Shown here: positions 17,380 to 28,010 of the stretch, in pieces
How positions within the stretch are numbered: position 1 is the first letter of the stretch
How the letters are laid out: the number at the start of each line of letters is the position of its first letter
Assembly: GCA_949152475.1 (NCBI GenBank)
Contig: OX424561.1
Span: 6,882,001 to 6,946,000, forward strand
DNA length: 64,000 nucleotides
Source: Terebella lapidaria
Taxonomy: Eukaryota; Annelida; Polychaeta; Terebellida; Terebellidae
Direction of reading: 5' to 3'
The notes under the pieces: generated by a model
Databases searched by the model: none
What the model was told of the DNA's origin: nothing
Seen by the model: only the letters and a program-made list of their open reading frames with translations
Position numbers and translations under genes: made by a program

Positions 17380-17488
17380 CACGCAGGGTAAGCGAGAATG
17401 CCGAGTTGCGCACAAAATACGTTGCTTTGCCGAGTTGCGCACAAGAAATACCGAGTTGCGCACAGGAAATGCCGAGGCGCGCCGAAAT
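17380..17488 (+). repeat. Left terminal inverted repeat of the 10.6 kb transposon
   Basis: 109 bp, 108 matching the complement of the right end. It contains an internal direct repeat GCCGAGTTGCGCACA at three positions with 20-40 bp spacing, plausibly multiple transposase-binding sites. A weaker subterminal relative, GCTGGGTTGCGCACA, lies at about 17892. Confidence 0.93.
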
Positions 17489-17585
17489 CAGGCTATGTGC
17501 ACTACGCTCCGTGCGAAAAGTAAGTAAATATGGGTGTTTATATCAACAATATCGGATGAAATTCATGTCTATCCGGATCTCCTGA

Positions 17586-17699
17586 TATGTCAAGTGCCTA
17601 CATAGTTGGATGTAGAACGATCTGTAAAGAAATGATGGAGCACGAAGTGGAAAACTTTGTCGCTACTTCCCCGATTCCCCTATTATCACCCAGTGCACG
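17586..17699 (+). CDS. Candidate first exon of the transposon's YqaJ gene
   Basis: ATG at 17586 opens a frame reading MSSAYIVGCRTICKEMMEHE... with no stop to beyond 17699. It is the only reasonable initiator I see between the left terminal repeat and the nested repeats, and the main exon at 20504 needs an upstream exon ending in phase 1. Possible donors are the GT at about 17632 and the GT at 17700, both mediocre. It is an inference only. Confidence 0.25.
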
Positions 17700-18797
17700 T
17701 TTCACAAGCTTATGGTGTATCTTAAATAGTTGAACAGATACGTTATATTGTTTAATTGCTTTTATATACATATATTAGAGCTATTCTTGTCATATATGCA
17801 ATCATATCTTGACATATACAAACAATATATTGGTATTCAAAAATAATTCCGTGACCCCTGCCGAGTAACGCACGGCAAAGTGTTGGTAACTGCTGGGTTG
17901 CGCACAAATGAATAAATATATGCTAACTTGCTCAGACAAAAGTATAAAACGTCCATTTTACTTTGATCATATGTTTATTTATTTATAGTCAGTTATGTAT
18001 TCTGAAAGGGAAAACCAGATAGTACACCACAGTATGCCTGCTACCCCTAGGGCCTTGTCTGTGTCTGGGACACTATGCAGATAAAATCCTTGTAGCCTAG
18101 ATAGCGTACGTTTGTGTTGTGCACCAGTCACACCAAGGCCCCTGACGTCTCCGGACCATCCCGGCCTGAAAGTAGTTGGTCAAATTCTTGCTGGGTCCAT
18201 GACGATCAATGGTGATCCTGGGTAGTCCGAGACTGTTTTTTTTAAATCCTTGGTAGTCCGGGAAGGTTCGTTTGGGTCTGGGACAATCCTGGAAAGTCTG
18301 TTGACAACGTCTTGAATCTGAGGTGTTCCAGGGATAGTTTGTGGCGCTGTCGTGCTGATTGCCGTGTTGGATCCGTGTTCATCCTTAGTGCTGTTGGGTG
18401 GGGTCCTGATGAAGGGATACAGGGACAAATACTGCCGATACATTTTCACCTCGATCACCCCGCACCACCCAGGATCACCATGGACCAAGGAATGGCTAGA
18501 TCTGGGATGATCCTGGGTGTTCCTGTCTTTGGTGTTACTGTTGCTTTATGAGCGAACGTGTATAGGATGTCATATCTTATGGCACACCTAATGGTCATTT
18601 TGAAATAGACGTAATGTGAATTGAGTGTTAAAAAAACTCATTGTCATGTGTGTTGTGAAATGTAGGGCCTATACATTAGATCCTGTGCCCAAAACACTTG
18701 TAAGATCATATCTGGGGACTTAGAGTTTTTCGTACCTCCGCACATCTTGCCCTCCGCAGTGCGGAGCCCCAGACTCCATGTATGGGAAATGTAACAG

Positions 18798-19590
18798 GGA
18801 AGGGTGTGGGTCCTAGATGATGACAATCGTATGAATCCATTCCAACGGCCCCTCAATATATGAACCCCGGCCCACTTGACTTACAGCTGACGGCAAGGCC
18901 GCGATCTCTTCTTGCACAGTGGTGCAAGCGTGAGGGAAGTCTCTGGTGAACCTCCGCAACCCGCGGACCTGTGAGGGACGTCTCCGCAGTAAACGAACCT
19001 CAGCATCCGCGGACTTGTGAAAGAAGTCTTTGATGACCTATCGCCATGGCGTTGTGTCCGTCGTCAGTCTACATTTTTATTTTACTCCTAGAACGCATGA
19101 AGATAGAGCTTAGAAATTGGCACTTTCAAATGGGAAGTCATGTTTGGCGACTTGTATGCTGACCTTGAATTTGGCCTTAGGTGACCTTGAAAGGTCAAAA
19201 CAGCCATTTTTGGGTCGAAAAATTTCCAAATTTTCACCTTGTTTGTCTTTTCTCCAAAACTGTCTAATCAGTTTTGAGATTTTTGTTTCAAAATATTCCT
19301 CTTATGTAACTTTATGACGTGTATAAGTTTTGTTGCCCTTGAATCGTCGATCTCCGTGTTGCGGCCATTTTTGACGAGTCAGCGAAAACCTTTTTTTTCG
19401 CCCCTAATCGCATTACTATCCATTTTGGGCCATTTCTAGGGCAGAAAAAAATTTCACCCTTGAGAAATTTTTTAGCTGCCTTGCCGTCAGCTGTAAGTCA
19501 AGAGGGCCGGGGTTCATATATTGAGGGGCCGTTGGAATGGATTCATACGATTGTCATCATCTGGGACCCACACCACACCCTTCTTTTTTT
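18798..19590. mobile_element. Fold-back with about 97-bp arms inside the transposon
   Basis: The segment near 18802-18898 (GGGTGTGGGTCC...GACGGCAAGG) recurs inverted at about 19481-19578 with about three differences. Both arms include the phrase CCGGGGTTCATATATTGAGG or its complement. The arms enclose about 580 bp with TCCGCGGAC words and part of the AGGTCA-rich repeat family. It is non-coding and probably a nested insertion in the first intron of the YqaJ gene. Confidence 0.75.
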
Positions 19591-20460
19591 CAAGATTTGT
19601 TTCCTTCATAATGGGAGCTGTCGGGACTGTACTCATAGAACACTTGAAGATACAGGTTAGAAATTGACACTTTCAAATAGGAAGTCATATATGGCGATTT
19701 GTACGGTGACCTTGAATTTGACATTGGATGACCTTGGAATGTCAAAACAGCCATTTTGGGGTAAAAAATGCCCAGATTTGCTTCTATATATGAAGTGCTT
19801 GCAGATAGAGCTCATGTTTGCATTATGAACAAATAGGAAGACACATATGGCACAACTAATGATGACCTTGAACTTGACGTCAGATGACCATGAGTGCCAA
19901 ATGTCTGACTAGGAATGTGTAAATTGACCTGAGCGGCCTAAACGATTCCACCCAGTTATATCTTTGTAATATGAACATATAGAATATCAAATTCCGCACA
20001 CATACATGCAATGGTGACATCGCAGTTCACACGGATGACCTTGATTGGTAAATCTCAATGTCATATGTTCACACTGTGAACCTTGATTGGGAAATCTCAA
20101 GGTCTGTTACCTGCCATTGCTGCCATGGCCAAACCAAAATTGTTCGGTAACTTGTCTCAACCTTTGGGCTAATTTTTAAAGTTTGCGGACAGACCTTTTA
20201 GCAATTTTGCACAAACATGTCTAAAAAATTTAAAAAGGGAGTTATTTTTCAGTTTTTTATTTTCGATTTTGTTTTCAAAATGGCGGTCATTTATGGTGAA
20301 AAAGGGCCAATTCTGGACTTTGACGGTCGTTTTCTCAAAATCTGTTCAGTAACTTTTTTTCTGATTTATCCATAAAATTCCTCATATCCTGTGACGTTTA
20401 TAAGTTTCGTTAGCCTTGAATCGCTCGGGATGGGCCATTTTGGCCCCAAATGGGACAATA
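19060..20460 (-). mobile_element. Reverse-oriented AGGTCA-rich repeat nested in the transposon
   Basis: The complement of this stretch matches the family at 14446-16123. It includes GACCTTGAATTTGACATTGG, AACAGCCATTTTTGGGTCG, the ATGGCCGCC block reversed, and near 20133-20175 GTTCGGTAAC..CAACCTTTGGGCTAAT, which corresponds to that family's left end. A second partial unit follows to 20460. It lies just upstream of the acceptor of the YqaJ gene's main exon. Confidence 0.65.
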
Positions 20461-20503
20461 ATGTGTTCCATTATTATTTGACCTTTGGTTCATATTTCCC
20501 CAG

Positions 20504-23500
20504 TGGATAATACAAAGAGGAAAAGAAAAAATAGTCAACTCACTCTATATCTTGCTCGGAAGAGGAGAAGGCGAGAATCTGAGGGTGCAAAATCTATTCC
20601 GGGATCTTCTACAGAAGGTAGCACACGGAAAGCAGACAAAACACCAATTACTTCAATGTCGGAATCTTCCAAACAAGTCTTGTCTCGAGCACCAGTTAAG
20701 AAAAGACGTCTTAGAAGATGGAGACGACTATTTGACGTATCACACCCAGATCAATGTGCCAAGCAGCTGTCTCAGGACGCAGGACAACTCTGTCACTTAC
20801 TATACCAAGCAGGGGTGCTGAGCGATTTCATGACCTTGATTAACGTGCTTTGTGATGGTCGCCTACAACCGGATAATTTATCGTTACTGTTGTGTCTGGA
20901 GCGGGCTAAGTATTCTTCTCTGATATCAACTACCTACATGACCTATTCAAAACAAACTCTAAAATTCTGGAAAGTTGTGTTCAGACTTCTGAAAGGAAAA
21001 GCCCTCCGTCTATTTGCTGGACCAAAAAATGCAGGTCAAGGGGGTAAATGTAGTGACAAGAGTTACGATCCAGTGCAATCCAAATGCAATTTTGCTGTAC
21101 CAAGTCAGAGCGTTCTTCGAACTAATGATGCTTCAAATCCAGTACCAAAGGAAATAAACCCTGGCATTCTTCCAGACGTTCTGGCTCTTCTTGAACCTGA
21201 TAAAGACAAAAAAGAGTTTGTCATCGCAGTTGATGGCAAGAAAGTTGCTCAGGGGTTAGACGACACTCGTGGAGATATTGACCTTTGGGGTCATGAGATG
21301 CCAAACAAAAAAATGAAGCAAGAACAGATTGCAGAAAGCTTAGCACTATGTTCAGAGATAGCCGAAGCAGTTAGTGACCTAGAATCCTCAAAAGTTCTCA
21401 TGGACTTTGACACGGAACTGAAGCAAAGTATCAAAGGACAATTGGCAAAGCTAGTTACTGCGACGAGCAACAACTTGCAGAATTTGAGGGAACTTGAGTT
21501 TCAACAGAAGAAACTGAGACAGAAGCTTGAAAATCTTGCTGATCGTAACCCAGATATGAAGGTGAGAGTTAAAATGATGATCTTTCAGAAGTAAGTGACG
21601 AATAATATATGATTCTTGTTCTGGTCCATATTCCACGTGAATATCCAACTCTGGTACCAATGTTCTATCAGGATATAAATGTCTAGTTACCCATTCGATG
21701 GTAGTTAGCACCACGTCACATGTATCGGTGTTTGCCTTTCAGGACAAGTACAAGTATGCCCTCAGCAAAACACAAGCGACAGTATATCAGTCAAAATCTG
21801 CGATCACAACTGGTCTGTCAGTCAACAGGTCTATATGTTGCATTGGCAGTGAGCTCGGACAGGCACACCATGCATATGTGCCAGGGTCGTTTGTTGATAT
21901 GAGTCATCAAGAAAACGTTTTGCTGTTGAAGAAACCTGAAGATTTGCCTCCTGAATTTCAGCTTCCCGAGTACACAAAACAGAGGACCCCTGAGTGGCTG
22001 AATTACCGAAAGGAAGCACCCGTAAGTGGCAGCACATTGCATAAAGCATTGGGATTGCGGCAATTGAAAGATCAGAAAGAGCACATAAAAGTCTTGCGAG
22101 GCGACAAAGAGCCAGAGGAAGTCACACCTGAACTCCAGGCAAGATTCGATCATGGTACAGAAAATGAAGACAATGCCATTGCAACCTTTGCATCACTGGT
22201 GGTTCCATTCCTATTCGATGACTGTTATGTTGTTGAAGAAGGCTGCAGTTTCATCACAAAGGAAGGTGGTGAAAAACTCATGGTCGTGTCAACGGACGGC
22301 ACTCTGAGACTACCGAATCAAGATATTATCAGTATCCTAGAAGTGAAATGTCCTATCGATTCGGATTACAAGTTGCCAGTGTACTACAAGCTTCCAAAGT
22401 GGTATGTGTGCCAGATGATGGCTGAGATGGCTTCCAAGTCGACATCGAGTGGTATATTCATCAGTTATTGCAGTAGTAGTTGCACCGTCCTGGAGGTCAC
22501 ATTTGATGAAGAACTCTGGCGACTCGTCAGAGAAGAGGTGGATCGAGTATATGGCAATGGGCGCAGTGCTCTCAAAGTGCCAACCAGGAGGAGTGATGCA
22601 GTGTCTATGATCAACCATAAGATCGAGCGTTTCATACACGAAAATGTGAAACTCATTCTCGAAGTTCCATCCCTGAAAAAATCAGACAACCCAGAGGAAC
22701 GGATACCTGGCAATGAGTCACCGTTCCTGCTACCAGACACAGACGTGGATTCAACAACTGAACAGCTCACAGTAGCAGACGTGGTCATGGCTATGAGCTC
22801 CACCGAAAAATTCATCAGGGAGGCTAATTTCCTGTGCCGCCGTAAAGCATCAGAGCTCCTGGCATTCGTGCTGACGGATACAGATCGTCTTGCAGACCCC
22901 AGTATTCCACATCATCTTCCGCTGGCATATGCATTGAAAGGCTACAGCTTAAACAACGAGACCGTCAGACAGATGACAGATGAAGTCAAACAAACTTGCC
23001 ACGAGAATGGTATCAGCATTTTATGTGAATGTTTCGATGGCCAATGGCACAATATATGTGTGCGTGATATTGAAGGGCAGCCACTGAACAAACTGGAGTT
23101 GCAGAAAGATGTGTGGAAAAATGCATGTGCGATGAAGAAGACAGCGCAGGTCACCTACTTCAAGTCCCTCTATGTTGGCGAAGCTGTTGCATCTAAGACA
23201 GAAGATGGCCCACTGCTGGTGAGGACGAAAGACGGCAACATGCAGAAGGTGAAAACCTACGTCATGTCAGACAGAAAGCAAAAGTCCACCAAAGAGAAGA
23301 TTGATCAACCAATTCTGTCTAGTGATCTTGACGCTGCTGTTACTTGTGATGTCGTCGCTGAAGTTGTTCTGGACCAGCCAGATACCCCTAGAAATGATGA
23401 CATAGTCACAAACGCCCTTGCGGACATTGATAATGATGATGAAGATGATGATGTGACAACCAGTGATCGAAACAACGTTGGGAGATTATCACTTATCACA

Positions 23501-25320
23501 AATCCCCTTCTGGATGTAATAGTGGAGAAACTCCAATCAGCTAATCAGAAAAAATGGAAGAATGTGACTATCAAATATCTCGTTGACCTCTTACAAACGA
23601 ATCAACTTTCAAAATTCACAAAGAACGAACTGCGAATCATTATATGCGAGATGACACATGACCGAAAAGAGCCACGTGGCAACTGTGACAAAGCGTCACT
23701 GATTGCAGTACTCTCCACATTGCTGGGACATCCAACTACTCCAACAGAACCTAACAAGAAAAGGAGCAAAAAACTACTGACGCTACGAGAGCTGTGTACA
23801 CGAGAATTGAGTGCCAAGACCTACCCCAAGTTTGCACTGTCAGTAGCAATTGCAACTCATCAATATGAATCTGCAGAACAAACGTGGAAATGCAAAACAG
23901 GGGCCCCGATGTCCATTGAAGTTGGTGATGATACGTATGATATGTTCTCTCAGCCAGAGTTCAGCCAAACGAGGAAAAAGTATGAACCATGCATCATTGA
24001 CCCAAGTCATCTACTGGTGAATAACAGGGTACGTATTCTTACCAGAGGAATTGATGGTGTAAAACCAAGTGCTTTCCACAAAATACCAGAAACACACCCA
24101 AACGTGATCAACAGGTCCTTCGTAGTCGACATAGTCGACAAGCAAAACGTTGCACATGCACAGAAGGTTTTCTCAGAAGACATGGAACAGGCCCTGCGTG
24201 ATAATGGCGACACTAGTGAGGCCGACTATGTCAAACTAGTACGACAGTGGTATGAAGCAATTGATGCTCCAGGAATCCCAGCGCAACGGAGAGTGACACA
24301 AATGAAGAATCTGAGAGATTACTTACTGAAGAATGTGGCTTTTGACAAATTCCCACCACAAGGTTTATACCTGAAAGGTCTGCCAGTCGTGCAGTTTTGT
24401 GGCTTCATACAAAACGTGGAGACACGAGTTCGTTTGTACATGCTTTCGAAGAATGGCACATACAACCATCGAGCTATTGGAACTCTGGCTGTGGAATCTT
24501 TCTTTGGAGACTTAACAGAAATGGATGCAACTGGGTGCCCACAAGCTGTCAGAATCCCGAGGATGATGTCACATGTGACAGAATTGAACCACTTCCGATA
24601 CAATGATGAAGACCGGTAGATAATCTTTATTGCTCTTGCATTTTTTAATGTGCTCTAAATATCAACACGTGTTGTAATAATAATATACAAGTAAATAAGG
24701 ATATTTACTTGAATATTAAGATGTGATCGTTTCGTGGGTTGCTCTGATTCACGCCCGAGCCCGTTCCCAATCGGAAAAAGTAATTCTACTGTTTAGAATC
24801 ACAGGTATTGGTACAATGATTGTTAGGTTACGACATGTATGAACATGTATGTATTACTTTTGTGTTGTATTGCTGGTGTGTATCATCAGGTGCTTTCACA
24901 TGGCGACGAAGAAAACATCGGTGTATCCATTCAAACCCCTCACACCTCAAATCTCAACAGATGCACCCCATGGGTTGCCAATCACTCTGCCACCACCGTC
25001 AGAAAGGGCAACACTATTCATTCAGTAAGTATTAAGCAACAACAGTAATGACATTGTCTAATAACACGTTCATTTCACAAATAATCACTCTCACACGTAT
25101 GTCCTGCCGCAGGGATCATTTCTTCGACACTGAGGAGAGACGACATGAGAAGAGACGCATGAAGTCGTCATCGGTGTCCAAACCATACCAGCCACAGAAA
25201 GGTGTCCAGCCTGTCAGAAGTCAGCGTTACAAAACTGACGAATCAAAAATTTTGGCGACGAACAAGCTCGGGGCCAGTGTGAACGATATCGAGAACGTTA
25301 CAATTATGAAGCATCTGTAA
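20504..25320 (+). CDS. Transposase-like protein with internal YqaJ (lambda-exonuclease fold) nuclease domain
   Basis: Four exons join in frame: 20504-21561, 21743-24615, 24890-25024 and 25113-25320 (TAA), about 1,423 codons. The upstream initiator exon is uncertain, because the frame starts at an acceptor (TTTCCCCAG at 20495-20503). Donors are GTGAGA, GTAGAT and GTAAGT. The N-terminus is very basic (KRKRKN, RKRRRRE, KKRRLRRWRR), then comes FVIAVDGKKVAQGL...DIDLWGHE around residue 245 and a coiled coil. The YqaJ domain (about 21980-22560) has RTPEWLNYRK, GTENEDNAI, STDGTL and LEVKCP, so its catalytic D and E-x-K are intact. Then follow CECFDGQWHN (Asp codon 23036-23038), an acidic linker, and LAVESFFGDL (Glu codon 24494-24496). 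The three acidic motifs resemble D, D and E of P-like transposases; that is inference. Poly(A) signal AATAAA is at 25498-25503. Confidence 0.85.
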
Positions 25321-25497
25321 TGGAAGCTGATATAAGTATGAAACCATGACCATGACCATGAAACCGAGAAGGTGTGTCAAAACAATACGCTTTAATTTGC
25401 TTCAAAAAGTACAAGTATCAGGAACTTTCAGTTCATAAGTGCAACAATGGTCGTTACAATAATACATTGTAAAAGTATTGTATGAAGTCCATCCATT

Positions 25498-25503
25498 AAT
25501 AAA
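25498..25503 (+). terminator. Poly(A) signal of the YqaJ gene
   Basis: AATAAA, 178 bp after the stop codon at 25320, and before the convergent zinc-finger stop at 25844. Confidence 0.6.
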
Positions 25504-25843
25504 AAGATCTCTACAGTCTCATCGACACCACAGAAGTACATTGCCAGAAAAATACAATGATATCACCATTATCACAATGTGTCAAGAAAATGCTCAGCCT
25601 CGCATAAAAAGTACATAATCACACACGTTTTACATTCACAACTGTCACAATGGTCGTCATAAAAAACATACTTAAAAGTAATTCCGCCCGACGCGAATTA
25701 AAAAGTAACGAGAAAGCTCTTCAGATGTCTCCAACTTATCAAACTTGTCATATTGAACAAATGATGAAAGTGATATGATATATACAAAATAAAACTGTTT
25801 TTTACAGTTTAGTCCATGTACATTGCACCCAATGGTAACCGAT

Positions 25844-26666
25844 CTATTCCACGTGGGATTTCAGGTGTTTGTAGAAGGAAGAGCGATGTTTGTAACATTT
25901 TCCACACTTCTCACATGTTTTCTCATCATCTGATGTGTGGAACTTTAGGTGTTCCCTAAAGTACGCCTCACACTTGAATTTCTTCAGACAGAAGTTACAT
26001 TCCACCTTTTCAGTATCTGAGTTTACACTACAAACCAGTTTATGCCTTTGAAGGTCGGATTTGTGTCCATAGGATTTTCCACAATCGTCACATATGTATG
26101 GCTTTTTATCACTATGTGAGTTTATGTGGCCATCTAACCCGCTACTACTACAATACTGTCGGCCACAGATATGGCAAACATACTTGCAAGCACCCTCGTG
26201 TTGGAGGACGTGTTCTTTCAATTTAGATTTCGATTGATACGTCTTACAACAATCGCCATACTCACATCGAAACAATAACCCCATATGTTTAACCTCTACA
26301 TGGTTTACCAGCTTATTCTTTTCGAAAAACTCAGCTGGACACAAGTTGCAACGAAGCGGAGACCCGTCGTGTCGTTTCAGGTGTCGTCGGAGGGTGGATT
26401 TAGAGCTGAGCGTGATCTCACACTTAGGGCATCTAAAGGGGTTCACTGGTATTTCATCTGTGGCTGGAATGTTGCTCGCAGTTGCCGTGATGGGGAGAGC
26501 GATCGCCTCATCTTCCATGACGGTGTTCCCCTGGTCAACCTGCTCAGTTACGCACACCACGTCAACGACTTCGCTGTGTCCACTCTCATTCAAAACTTCC
26601 ACTTGTGACACATCTCCCAGCTGCACCTCTGACGGGAGCTCCCGACACCCGAGGTCGAGTAATATA
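25844..26666 (-). CDS. C2H2 zinc-finger protein, terminal exon, inside the transposon
   Basis: The open frame runs from an acceptor (TTTTGTCCTACAG, complement of 26667-26679) to TAG at 25844-25846. It starts in phase with ILLDLGCRELPSE. The N-terminal third is acidic and valine-rich. Then come seven C2H2 fingers: FRCPKC..HLKRH, LRCNLC..HVEVKH, FRCEYGDC..HVLQH (Cys-x4-Cys), YVCHIC..HINSH, YICDDC..HKLVC (last His is Cys), VECNFC..HLKFH and KTCEKC..HLKSH. Linkers are not TGEKP. Upstream coding exon(s) must lie above 26680 but were not identified. It is convergent with the YqaJ gene and within the same terminal repeats, so it is either a component of the element (DNA-binding partner) or captured cargo. 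I cannot say which. Confidence 0.8.
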
Positions 26667-27901
26667 CTGTAGGACAAAACAAACATTACAAAGGGTAAAT
26701 TATGAGTAGTTCAGTGACAGATCAGACCGAACTGCCGCCCGAGGCGAATTATAAAAAATGCCGCCTCCGTATAGACATAAAATGAACTCTATGCGAATGA
26801 CCTTAGGCTTTATGAGGTTTAGGTTTGTATGATTTGGGCCTATCGTTTTGTTTGAAAATATGCGACCGCTAATATGCTAGCTTTTAAGTATCTTCTTCTG
26901 TTCTCGAGAAAATTATGATTTACCCTTGCATATAAGCAAAATAATACCACAACAGAGAATAACATAGCTTACTTATCGTGTTTAAGCTTATATTCATAAG
27001 ATGTATCTGGTCACCATAGCAACCATACTCTATATTATGGTCCAAAGCAAAGTGGATGCCTGGGCTTCAACTGGGGTCTTGCAAGCAAAACTATGTTAAA
27101 ATGCCCTTAATTTTGTTGTAGGCTACGGAGCAGCTTTGCCTCCTAATGAAATTCCCCATGTGGCCTACTGGTATGGTATTAGTATTCACCCTGCTGATAA
27201 TAATTCTGAATTAACTACAATTAAAATACGGTGGGGTGGGAGGGATATATAACATCTCATCGGTGAACAGGGGAAGTGAGGAAAATTCAATACACACACA
27301 AATTGAACACGTGCTTAAGTTTTATAAATAAACGGTAAAGCGATCGTCTTACGTGTGTGTGCATAATTTATAACTGTTGTTGTGAAGAGAAAAAATATCA
27401 GGCATATTCCGCAGAAGGAAACAATTGACATGGGTCTCCATTAGGCCTACATGTGCCTCCGTCCCTCAACATATTTGGGTTGCGCAACCGTGCAGTTGCC
27501 AGTGAGCGCGCCCGAGCAGTTGCCTATCGGATTTTGCCACTTCACACAAACACACATAAATAACTTTTCAAAATACCATCTACACGATGTTGACAATAAT
27601 TACTAATGATTATTCGCATTTGATAAGCAAGTTCCATCACTGTCAGCGATAAAAACGACCGGCGTTGTGTCTTAATTGCTTGGTTCAGTGAGCGATATAT
27701 GGAGGTTTTCACTGAAAACAACCCTGGTCAGTCAAATTTGACGAGTTCTATGAACTGCTCTGTGGTCAACTGATATTTCCGTGATCACCAATATTACTTA
27801 GAATGTTCATATATCCGGATGAGACTTTCAATATATACACACCTGTCTTCCATTCTTCTCAAACTCTTGAGAAAGGACAGATGAGAGTCCACGAACAAAC
27901 A

Positions 27902-28010
27902 ATTTCGGCGCGCCTCGGCATTTCCTGTGCGCAACTCGGCATTTCTTGTGCGCAACTCGGCAAAGCAACGTATTTTGTGCGCAACTCGGCATTCTCGCTT
28001 ACCCTGCGTG
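27902..28010 (-). repeat. Right terminal inverted repeat of the 10.6 kb transposon
   Basis: Complement of 17380-17488 with one mismatch. It is followed by ACTAA (28011-28015), the second copy of the 5-bp target duplication. Confidence 0.93.

Follow-up and report, generated by a model that had tools for sequence, protein, structure and literature searches.

An apparently recently active DNA transposon of Terebella lapidaria with a YqaJ exonuclease-type domain predicted inside a P-type transposase core

Introduction

To which superfamily of DNA transposons, if any, belongs an element that combines the ends of one group with a transposase resembling another? This question is raised by a 64,000-nt stretch of the genome of the annelid Terebella lapidaria (contig C7, 6882001-6946000; hereafter the window), which carries such an element at positions 17380-28010. 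A first-pass annotation had described it as an intact, autonomous-looking transposon with Transib/RAG-like termini and a long open reading frame (ORF) of a different kind. Based on its ends, its copies and its sister families, we consider it highly probable that the element represents a distinct superfamily of cut-and-paste DNA transposons, was active recently and, as far as its structure shows, is autonomous, with a P-element/THAP9-type DDE core into which a coiled coil and a YqaJ domain are inserted. DDE cut-and-paste transposition is of a known kind, and it is the insertion that is unusual.

Results

Ends, copies and target sites

The element is bounded by two terminal inverted repeats (TIRs) of 109 nt each, which are 99% complementary, and by an exact 5-bp target-site duplication (TSD), ACTAA on either side. 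Of its two genes, which are convergent, the one on the plus strand contains a YqaJ domain (PF09588, E value 6.4e-13), whereas the one on the minus strand encodes C2H2 zinc fingers (zf-C2H2, E value 5.6e-20). The repeats, the duplication and the convergent gene pair had already been described in the first-pass annotation. Each terminus contains three direct repeats of the GCCGAGTTGCGCACA type, with the mirrored copies of the right terminus located at 27910-27988; they had been likened to a transposase landing pad in the first-pass annotation, and protein binding to them is presumed.

A search of the genome (761.6 Mb, 438 contigs) with the TIR gave 165 candidate places. Forty of these were scored and all 40 match at 99-100%, so the TIR is not a chance similarity. 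A full-length copy on contig C9 is 99.5% identical over 9,818 bp and 99.6% identical at the remaining end, with AATGT on either side. On contig C14, the ends lie 10.6 kb apart between two copies of ATCAA, and the transposase frame is open as in the window element; here, the comparison covers the middle 6.0 kb and the ends. Over ∼6 kb, the three copies differ pairwise by 7, 11 and 14 substitutions and by 14, 36 and 36 gapped columns. These small differences therefore indicate recent movement. Other loci have only the ends in common with the window element or have lost the middle, as expected for deleted derivatives. Full-length as well as deleted copies with 5-bp TSDs are thus present as predicted, the description as intact and autonomous-looking holds, and no full-length copy lacking a consistent 5-bp TSD or the YqaJ gene was encountered among those examined.

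We counted TSDs in 15 window-family copies with both ends: the window, C9 and C14 copies, a 2-kb copy on contig C1 (TSD ATGGT) and 11 further pairs. The duplication is exact in 13 of them, L009 being different and L018 showing one mismatch. The count leaves aside L010, L012, L020 and L006 (far end outside the fetched piece), L002 and L011 (no separate far-end search), sister family B and TIR matches with only one end read; the search for partner ends missed 4 of 15. Together with the sister families described below, exact 5-bp TSDs occur in 18 of 21 copies, while the chance of a single 5-bp match is ∼0.0012 at the base composition of the window. No strict motif was seen among the duplicated 5-mers. 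As a separate observation, L011 and L012 (contig C16, 1071180 and 1068600) are two TIR ends that point the same way, with 2.6 kb between them, and have a common outer flank, which suggests a local duplication after insertion.

Sister families share the ends and the gene pair

Three protein searches, each scoring the ∼8,000 candidates with most shared words, revealed at least 27 related proteins (P0001-P0027). The sources named for some of them are Branchiostoma lanceolatum, B. belcheri, B. floridae, Mercenaria mercenaria, Ruditapes philippinarum, Dreissena polymorpha and one symbiont metagenome bin; these are annotated as uncharacterized, hypothetical or YqaJ proteins. Within the T. lapidaria genome, three of the 57 matches listed belong to the window family; the others show 28-47% identity, some in near-identical groups. 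We fetched the flanks of six sister groups and delimited five of them: F_L041 (8,741 bp, 561-bp TIRs, TSDs AATAT and GTACA in two copies), F_L048 (8,326 bp, ACAAA), F_L028 (8,950 bp, ACATT), F_L030 (10,737 bp, ATAAT) and F_L034 (7,961 bp). The sixth group, family B, could not be delimited. The ends of the five all begin with CAC (CACAGTCGTC, CACAGTCGCC, CACAGGGCAC, CACGCTGGGA and CACTCCCCGC), so that CAC ends are found in six of six families including that of the window. Three of the five sister families also have repeated 10-mers (at least three copies within 700 bp) close to one or both ends.

The partner gene is shared as well. All five sister families possess a C2H2-finger frame convergent to the transposase, four recognized by Pfam and that of F_L030 by pattern only. 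Seven fingers are present in each of the six proteins if overlapping pattern hits are counted as one and, by our reading of these hits, the fifth finger ends with Cys instead of His in five of six.

Four further observations concern particular relatives. In F_L030 (L083/L030, contig C7 near 19882963), the left end occurs a second time ∼650 bp further inward, which may represent a nested short element. The YqaJ transposase group L033, L035, L036 and L037 (contigs C3, C8, C3 and C1) is near-identical at four places and has no recognizable TIRs at the points where two of its copies cease to match; a 1,175-aa frame is open in three of the four, and ∼147-bp repeats follow the gene. The amphioxus proteins P0008 and P0013 (B. 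lanceolatum and B. belcheri) are 79% identical over their full length, as might be expected if the gene had been retained or domesticated. P0027, a YqaJ protein, derives from a 4-kb contig in a metagenome bin of Candidatus Thiodiazotropha, a clam symbiont, and may be contaminating host transposon sequence.

A predicted nuclease domain between the putative catalytic aspartates

The plus-strand gene consists of at least four exons joined by canonical splice sites, reaches beyond the ORF first noticed and encodes a predicted transposase of 1,431 aa, counted from the upstream stop. Its last exon shows 53% and 42% identity in two sister families. Disregarding gaps, the putative catalytic residues D1, D2 and E are kept in 26 of 27, 27 of 27 and 22 of 22 proteins, respectively.

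At E ≤ 10, the YqaJ profile finds 10 of 11 proteins. Compared with the Protein Data Bank (PDB), the family profile matches LHK-Exo (E value 5.2e-6) better than lambda exonuclease (E value 0.0043), and the DG, ExKCP and Q positions align with both. Residues E444, D487, E502, K504 and Q526, which we take to be the positions of the lambda exonuclease catalytic residues (K131 is named in a PDB title for that enzyme), occur in all 28 proteins compared, with the reservation that these and the other conservation counts include close relatives and are not independent. The PD-(D/E)xK active site of lambda-exonuclease-like YqaJ nucleases is accordingly found in this domain.

A structural model of the homologue P0002 has the P element transposase as by far its best match; Transib and RAG1 match the fold more distantly. 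In the model, the RNase H fold appears to be split: coiled coil and YqaJ domain are inserted after the first-Asp strand and a GDIDLWG motif, the fold resumes with the strands that precede the second Asp, while a late helix bears the Glu. We regard this arrangement as highly probable, as for the reading as a whole; it relies on profile and predicted model, while ends, TSDs, copies, the two genes and the conserved active-site residues are read from sequence. Of the earlier statement that the element looks like Transib/RAG but has an ORF of another kind, the part on the CAC/5-bp ends was confirmed; the core is a DDE/RNase H core nevertheless, nearest to P. A helical stretch precedes the Glu in the model at the place of the GTP-binding insertion domain (GBD), yet no Pfam match to the GBD model was obtained. 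No THAP match was found in Pfam scans of the window protein, taken from its first recognized exon onward, and of its relatives, and no RAG1 or Transib profile was among the Pfam matches. For the N-terminal exon, the fold prediction (mean predicted local distance difference test score 56.5) was not used, and Pfam gave no match at E ≤ 0.01 for N-terminal pieces of two sister transposases.

All coordinates are collected in Table 1. The internal inverted repeat, with 107-nt arms that are 94% complementary, is located within the long 5' region of the element and may be an older nested insertion.

Table 1. Features of the element, in positions of the window
Feature	Position	Strand	Basis
Left TSD ACTAA	17375..17379	.	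flank comparison
Left TIR, begins CACGCAGGG	17380..17488	+	self-complementarity; 40 scored genome matches
Three direct repeats CCGAGTTGCGCACA (from 17401, 17430, 17451), candidate protein-binding sites	17401..17464	+	binding presumed
Internal inverted repeat pair, arms 18796-18902 and 19475-19581	18796..19581	.	both arms also in C9 copy
Transposase, first recognized exon, counted from upstream stop	20482..21561	+	ORF, splice sites
Putative catalytic D1 codon (D193)	21232-21234	+	first recognized exon
Transposase main exon (remaining coiled coil, YqaJ, D2, E)	21743..24615	+	ORF, splice sites, alignment
YqaJ/lambda-exonuclease-type domain, predicted insertion in RNase H fold	21992..22435	+	PF09588; alignment to LHK-Exo and lambda exonuclease; homologue model
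Putative catalytic D2 codon (D734)	23036-23038	+	main exon
Putative catalytic E codon (E1220)	24494-24496	+	main exon
Transposase exon 3	24890..25024	+	splice sites, open frame
Transposase last exon with stop	25113..25320	+	splice sites; kept in two sister families
Seven-finger C2H2 protein gene, convergent, stop to stop	25844..26710	-	Pfam and finger pattern; counterpart in five sister families
Right TIR	27902..28010	-	self-complementarity
Right TSD ACTAA	28011..28015	.	flank comparison

Discussion

We assign the element to a distinct superfamily because its core is P-type yet 8-bp TSDs are not seen, its CAC/5-bp ends are Transib/RAG-like yet its core is much nearer to P, and the YqaJ protein of ISL2EU elements is separate and goes with a 2-bp TSD. 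A number of results weigh against this reading. The modeled homologue is only 42% identical to the window protein, and the structural aligner gives ranges, not residue pairs. The match of the window protein to PF21787 is weak (12.7 bits) and confined to the second half. In a scan of nine trimmed proteins without control junctions, one passes the cut-off of this profile, four fall below it, with scores no better than those of unrelated families, and the other four, including P0002, have no match. A PDB sequence search with the joined core profile and one joined protein gave no match to the P element chain. In F_L034, the CAC ends are flanked by only a 4-bp TSD (ATAT) and the copy that was fetched has a broken transposase frame, and family B has no recognizable TIRs where the two compared copies stop matching. 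Finally, in one of the three window-family copies (C9) an extra base in exon 1 breaks the frame, and the codon differences between copies (1-2 synonymous and 4-8 non-synonymous per pair) give no sign of purifying selection.

Could the element simply be a member of the P superfamily that gained a YqaJ domain and changed its TSD length, so that a separate superfamily is unwarranted? We consider this unlikely, though it is the alternative to be taken most seriously. The P-type DDE/RNase H core is indeed shared with that superfamily, P element transposase is the best structural match, and PF21787 covers what we take to be P/THAP9-type enzymes. The layout also agrees: the first strand bears a D, a later strand is directly followed by another D and a further strand by a DPSHLL motif, and a helical stretch then precedes the Glu helix. 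The window element differs from P/THAP9 in the YqaJ domain and coiled coil between D1 and D2, the C2H2 partner gene, the CAC ends and the absence of a THAP match in our scans. CAC ends occur in six of six families, a seven-finger partner gene likewise in six of six, a YqaJ match in 10 of the 11 proteins scanned and its five checked residues in all 28 compared. P elements make 8-bp TSDs and leave 17-nt 3' extensions (PMC7776569), in contrast to the 5 bp found here.

For the distinct superfamily that we prefer, a mechanism can be proposed. The transposase would pair the ends, cut at CAC and join them to the target with a 5-bp stagger, probably assisted by the seven-finger protein, which would bind the GCCGAGTTGCGCACA repeats in or near the TIRs or have a regulatory function. 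The exonuclease, present in cis, would probably digest the 5' strands of the broken donor ends; such resection would steer repair to templated gap filling, by which the element would be restored or copied and gain in copy number. Alternatively, it might trim the non-transferred strand. The YqaJ domain could instead be a structural spacer that cuts no DNA in transposition; its position inside the fold would suit a scaffold, but five checked active-site residues kept in 28 of 28 proteins make this improbable in our view.

CAC ends and 5-bp TSDs are typical of Transib/RAG. The window element agrees with Transib, ProtoRAG and RAG1 in both traits and has the same fold at lower similarity. That it owes these ends to common descent with RAG is nevertheless very unlikely in our view. 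Its core is nearer to P, it contains an exonuclease domain, and no RAG1/Transib profile appeared among the Pfam matches. A Harbinger-type origin near ISL2EU, animal DNA transposons of the PHIS group that have a PIF-type transposase and likewise carry YqaJ, can practically be dismissed: PMC4482050 describes YqaJ as a separate ORF, a 2-bp TSD (target A|AT|T) and TIRs usually starting with GG. The window element has YqaJ inside the transposase, a 5-bp TSD and CAC ends.

Kolobok elements duplicate TTAA, in contrast to TSDs such as ACTAA, AATGT and ATCAA. KolobokP and KolobokD also encode a nuclease, a His-Me finger or a DEDDh exonuclease; that of KolobokP is a separate protein of another fold (PMC9587614). 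The 2015 Repbase superfamily table is found in PMC4455052. The earlier suggestion of a superfamily undescribed or only named in libraries stands insofar as the element fits no named superfamily that could be checked, Repbase and Dfam lying outside the check, and is qualified by a core closest to P. Among the papers listed in our searches of the open literature, some of which gave capped lists, none was seen to describe a transposase whose YqaJ domain is internal, ISL2EU with its separate gene being the only link described there; "new" is meant in this sense. Neither from these searches nor otherwise do we know of a transposase whose RNase H fold contains a second nuclease between its two catalytic Asp residues.

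We tentatively propose, as a possibility somewhat short of even, a new animal superfamily with a two-nuclease transposase, in which a P-type DDE core houses a lambda-type exonuclease between its catalytic aspartates and acts on RAG/Transib-type ends (CAC, 5 bp). It might be an intermediate linking P and Transib/RAG, and the exonuclease might serve an obligate end processing of a chemistry not yet described. The near-identical copies make a test of activity practical. Some of the YqaJ expansions in a clam genome, counted as endogenous viral elements in PMC7826175, may instead be transposases of the kind described here. That a P-type core goes together with RAG/Transib-type ends is relevant to the relations among P, Transib and RAG.
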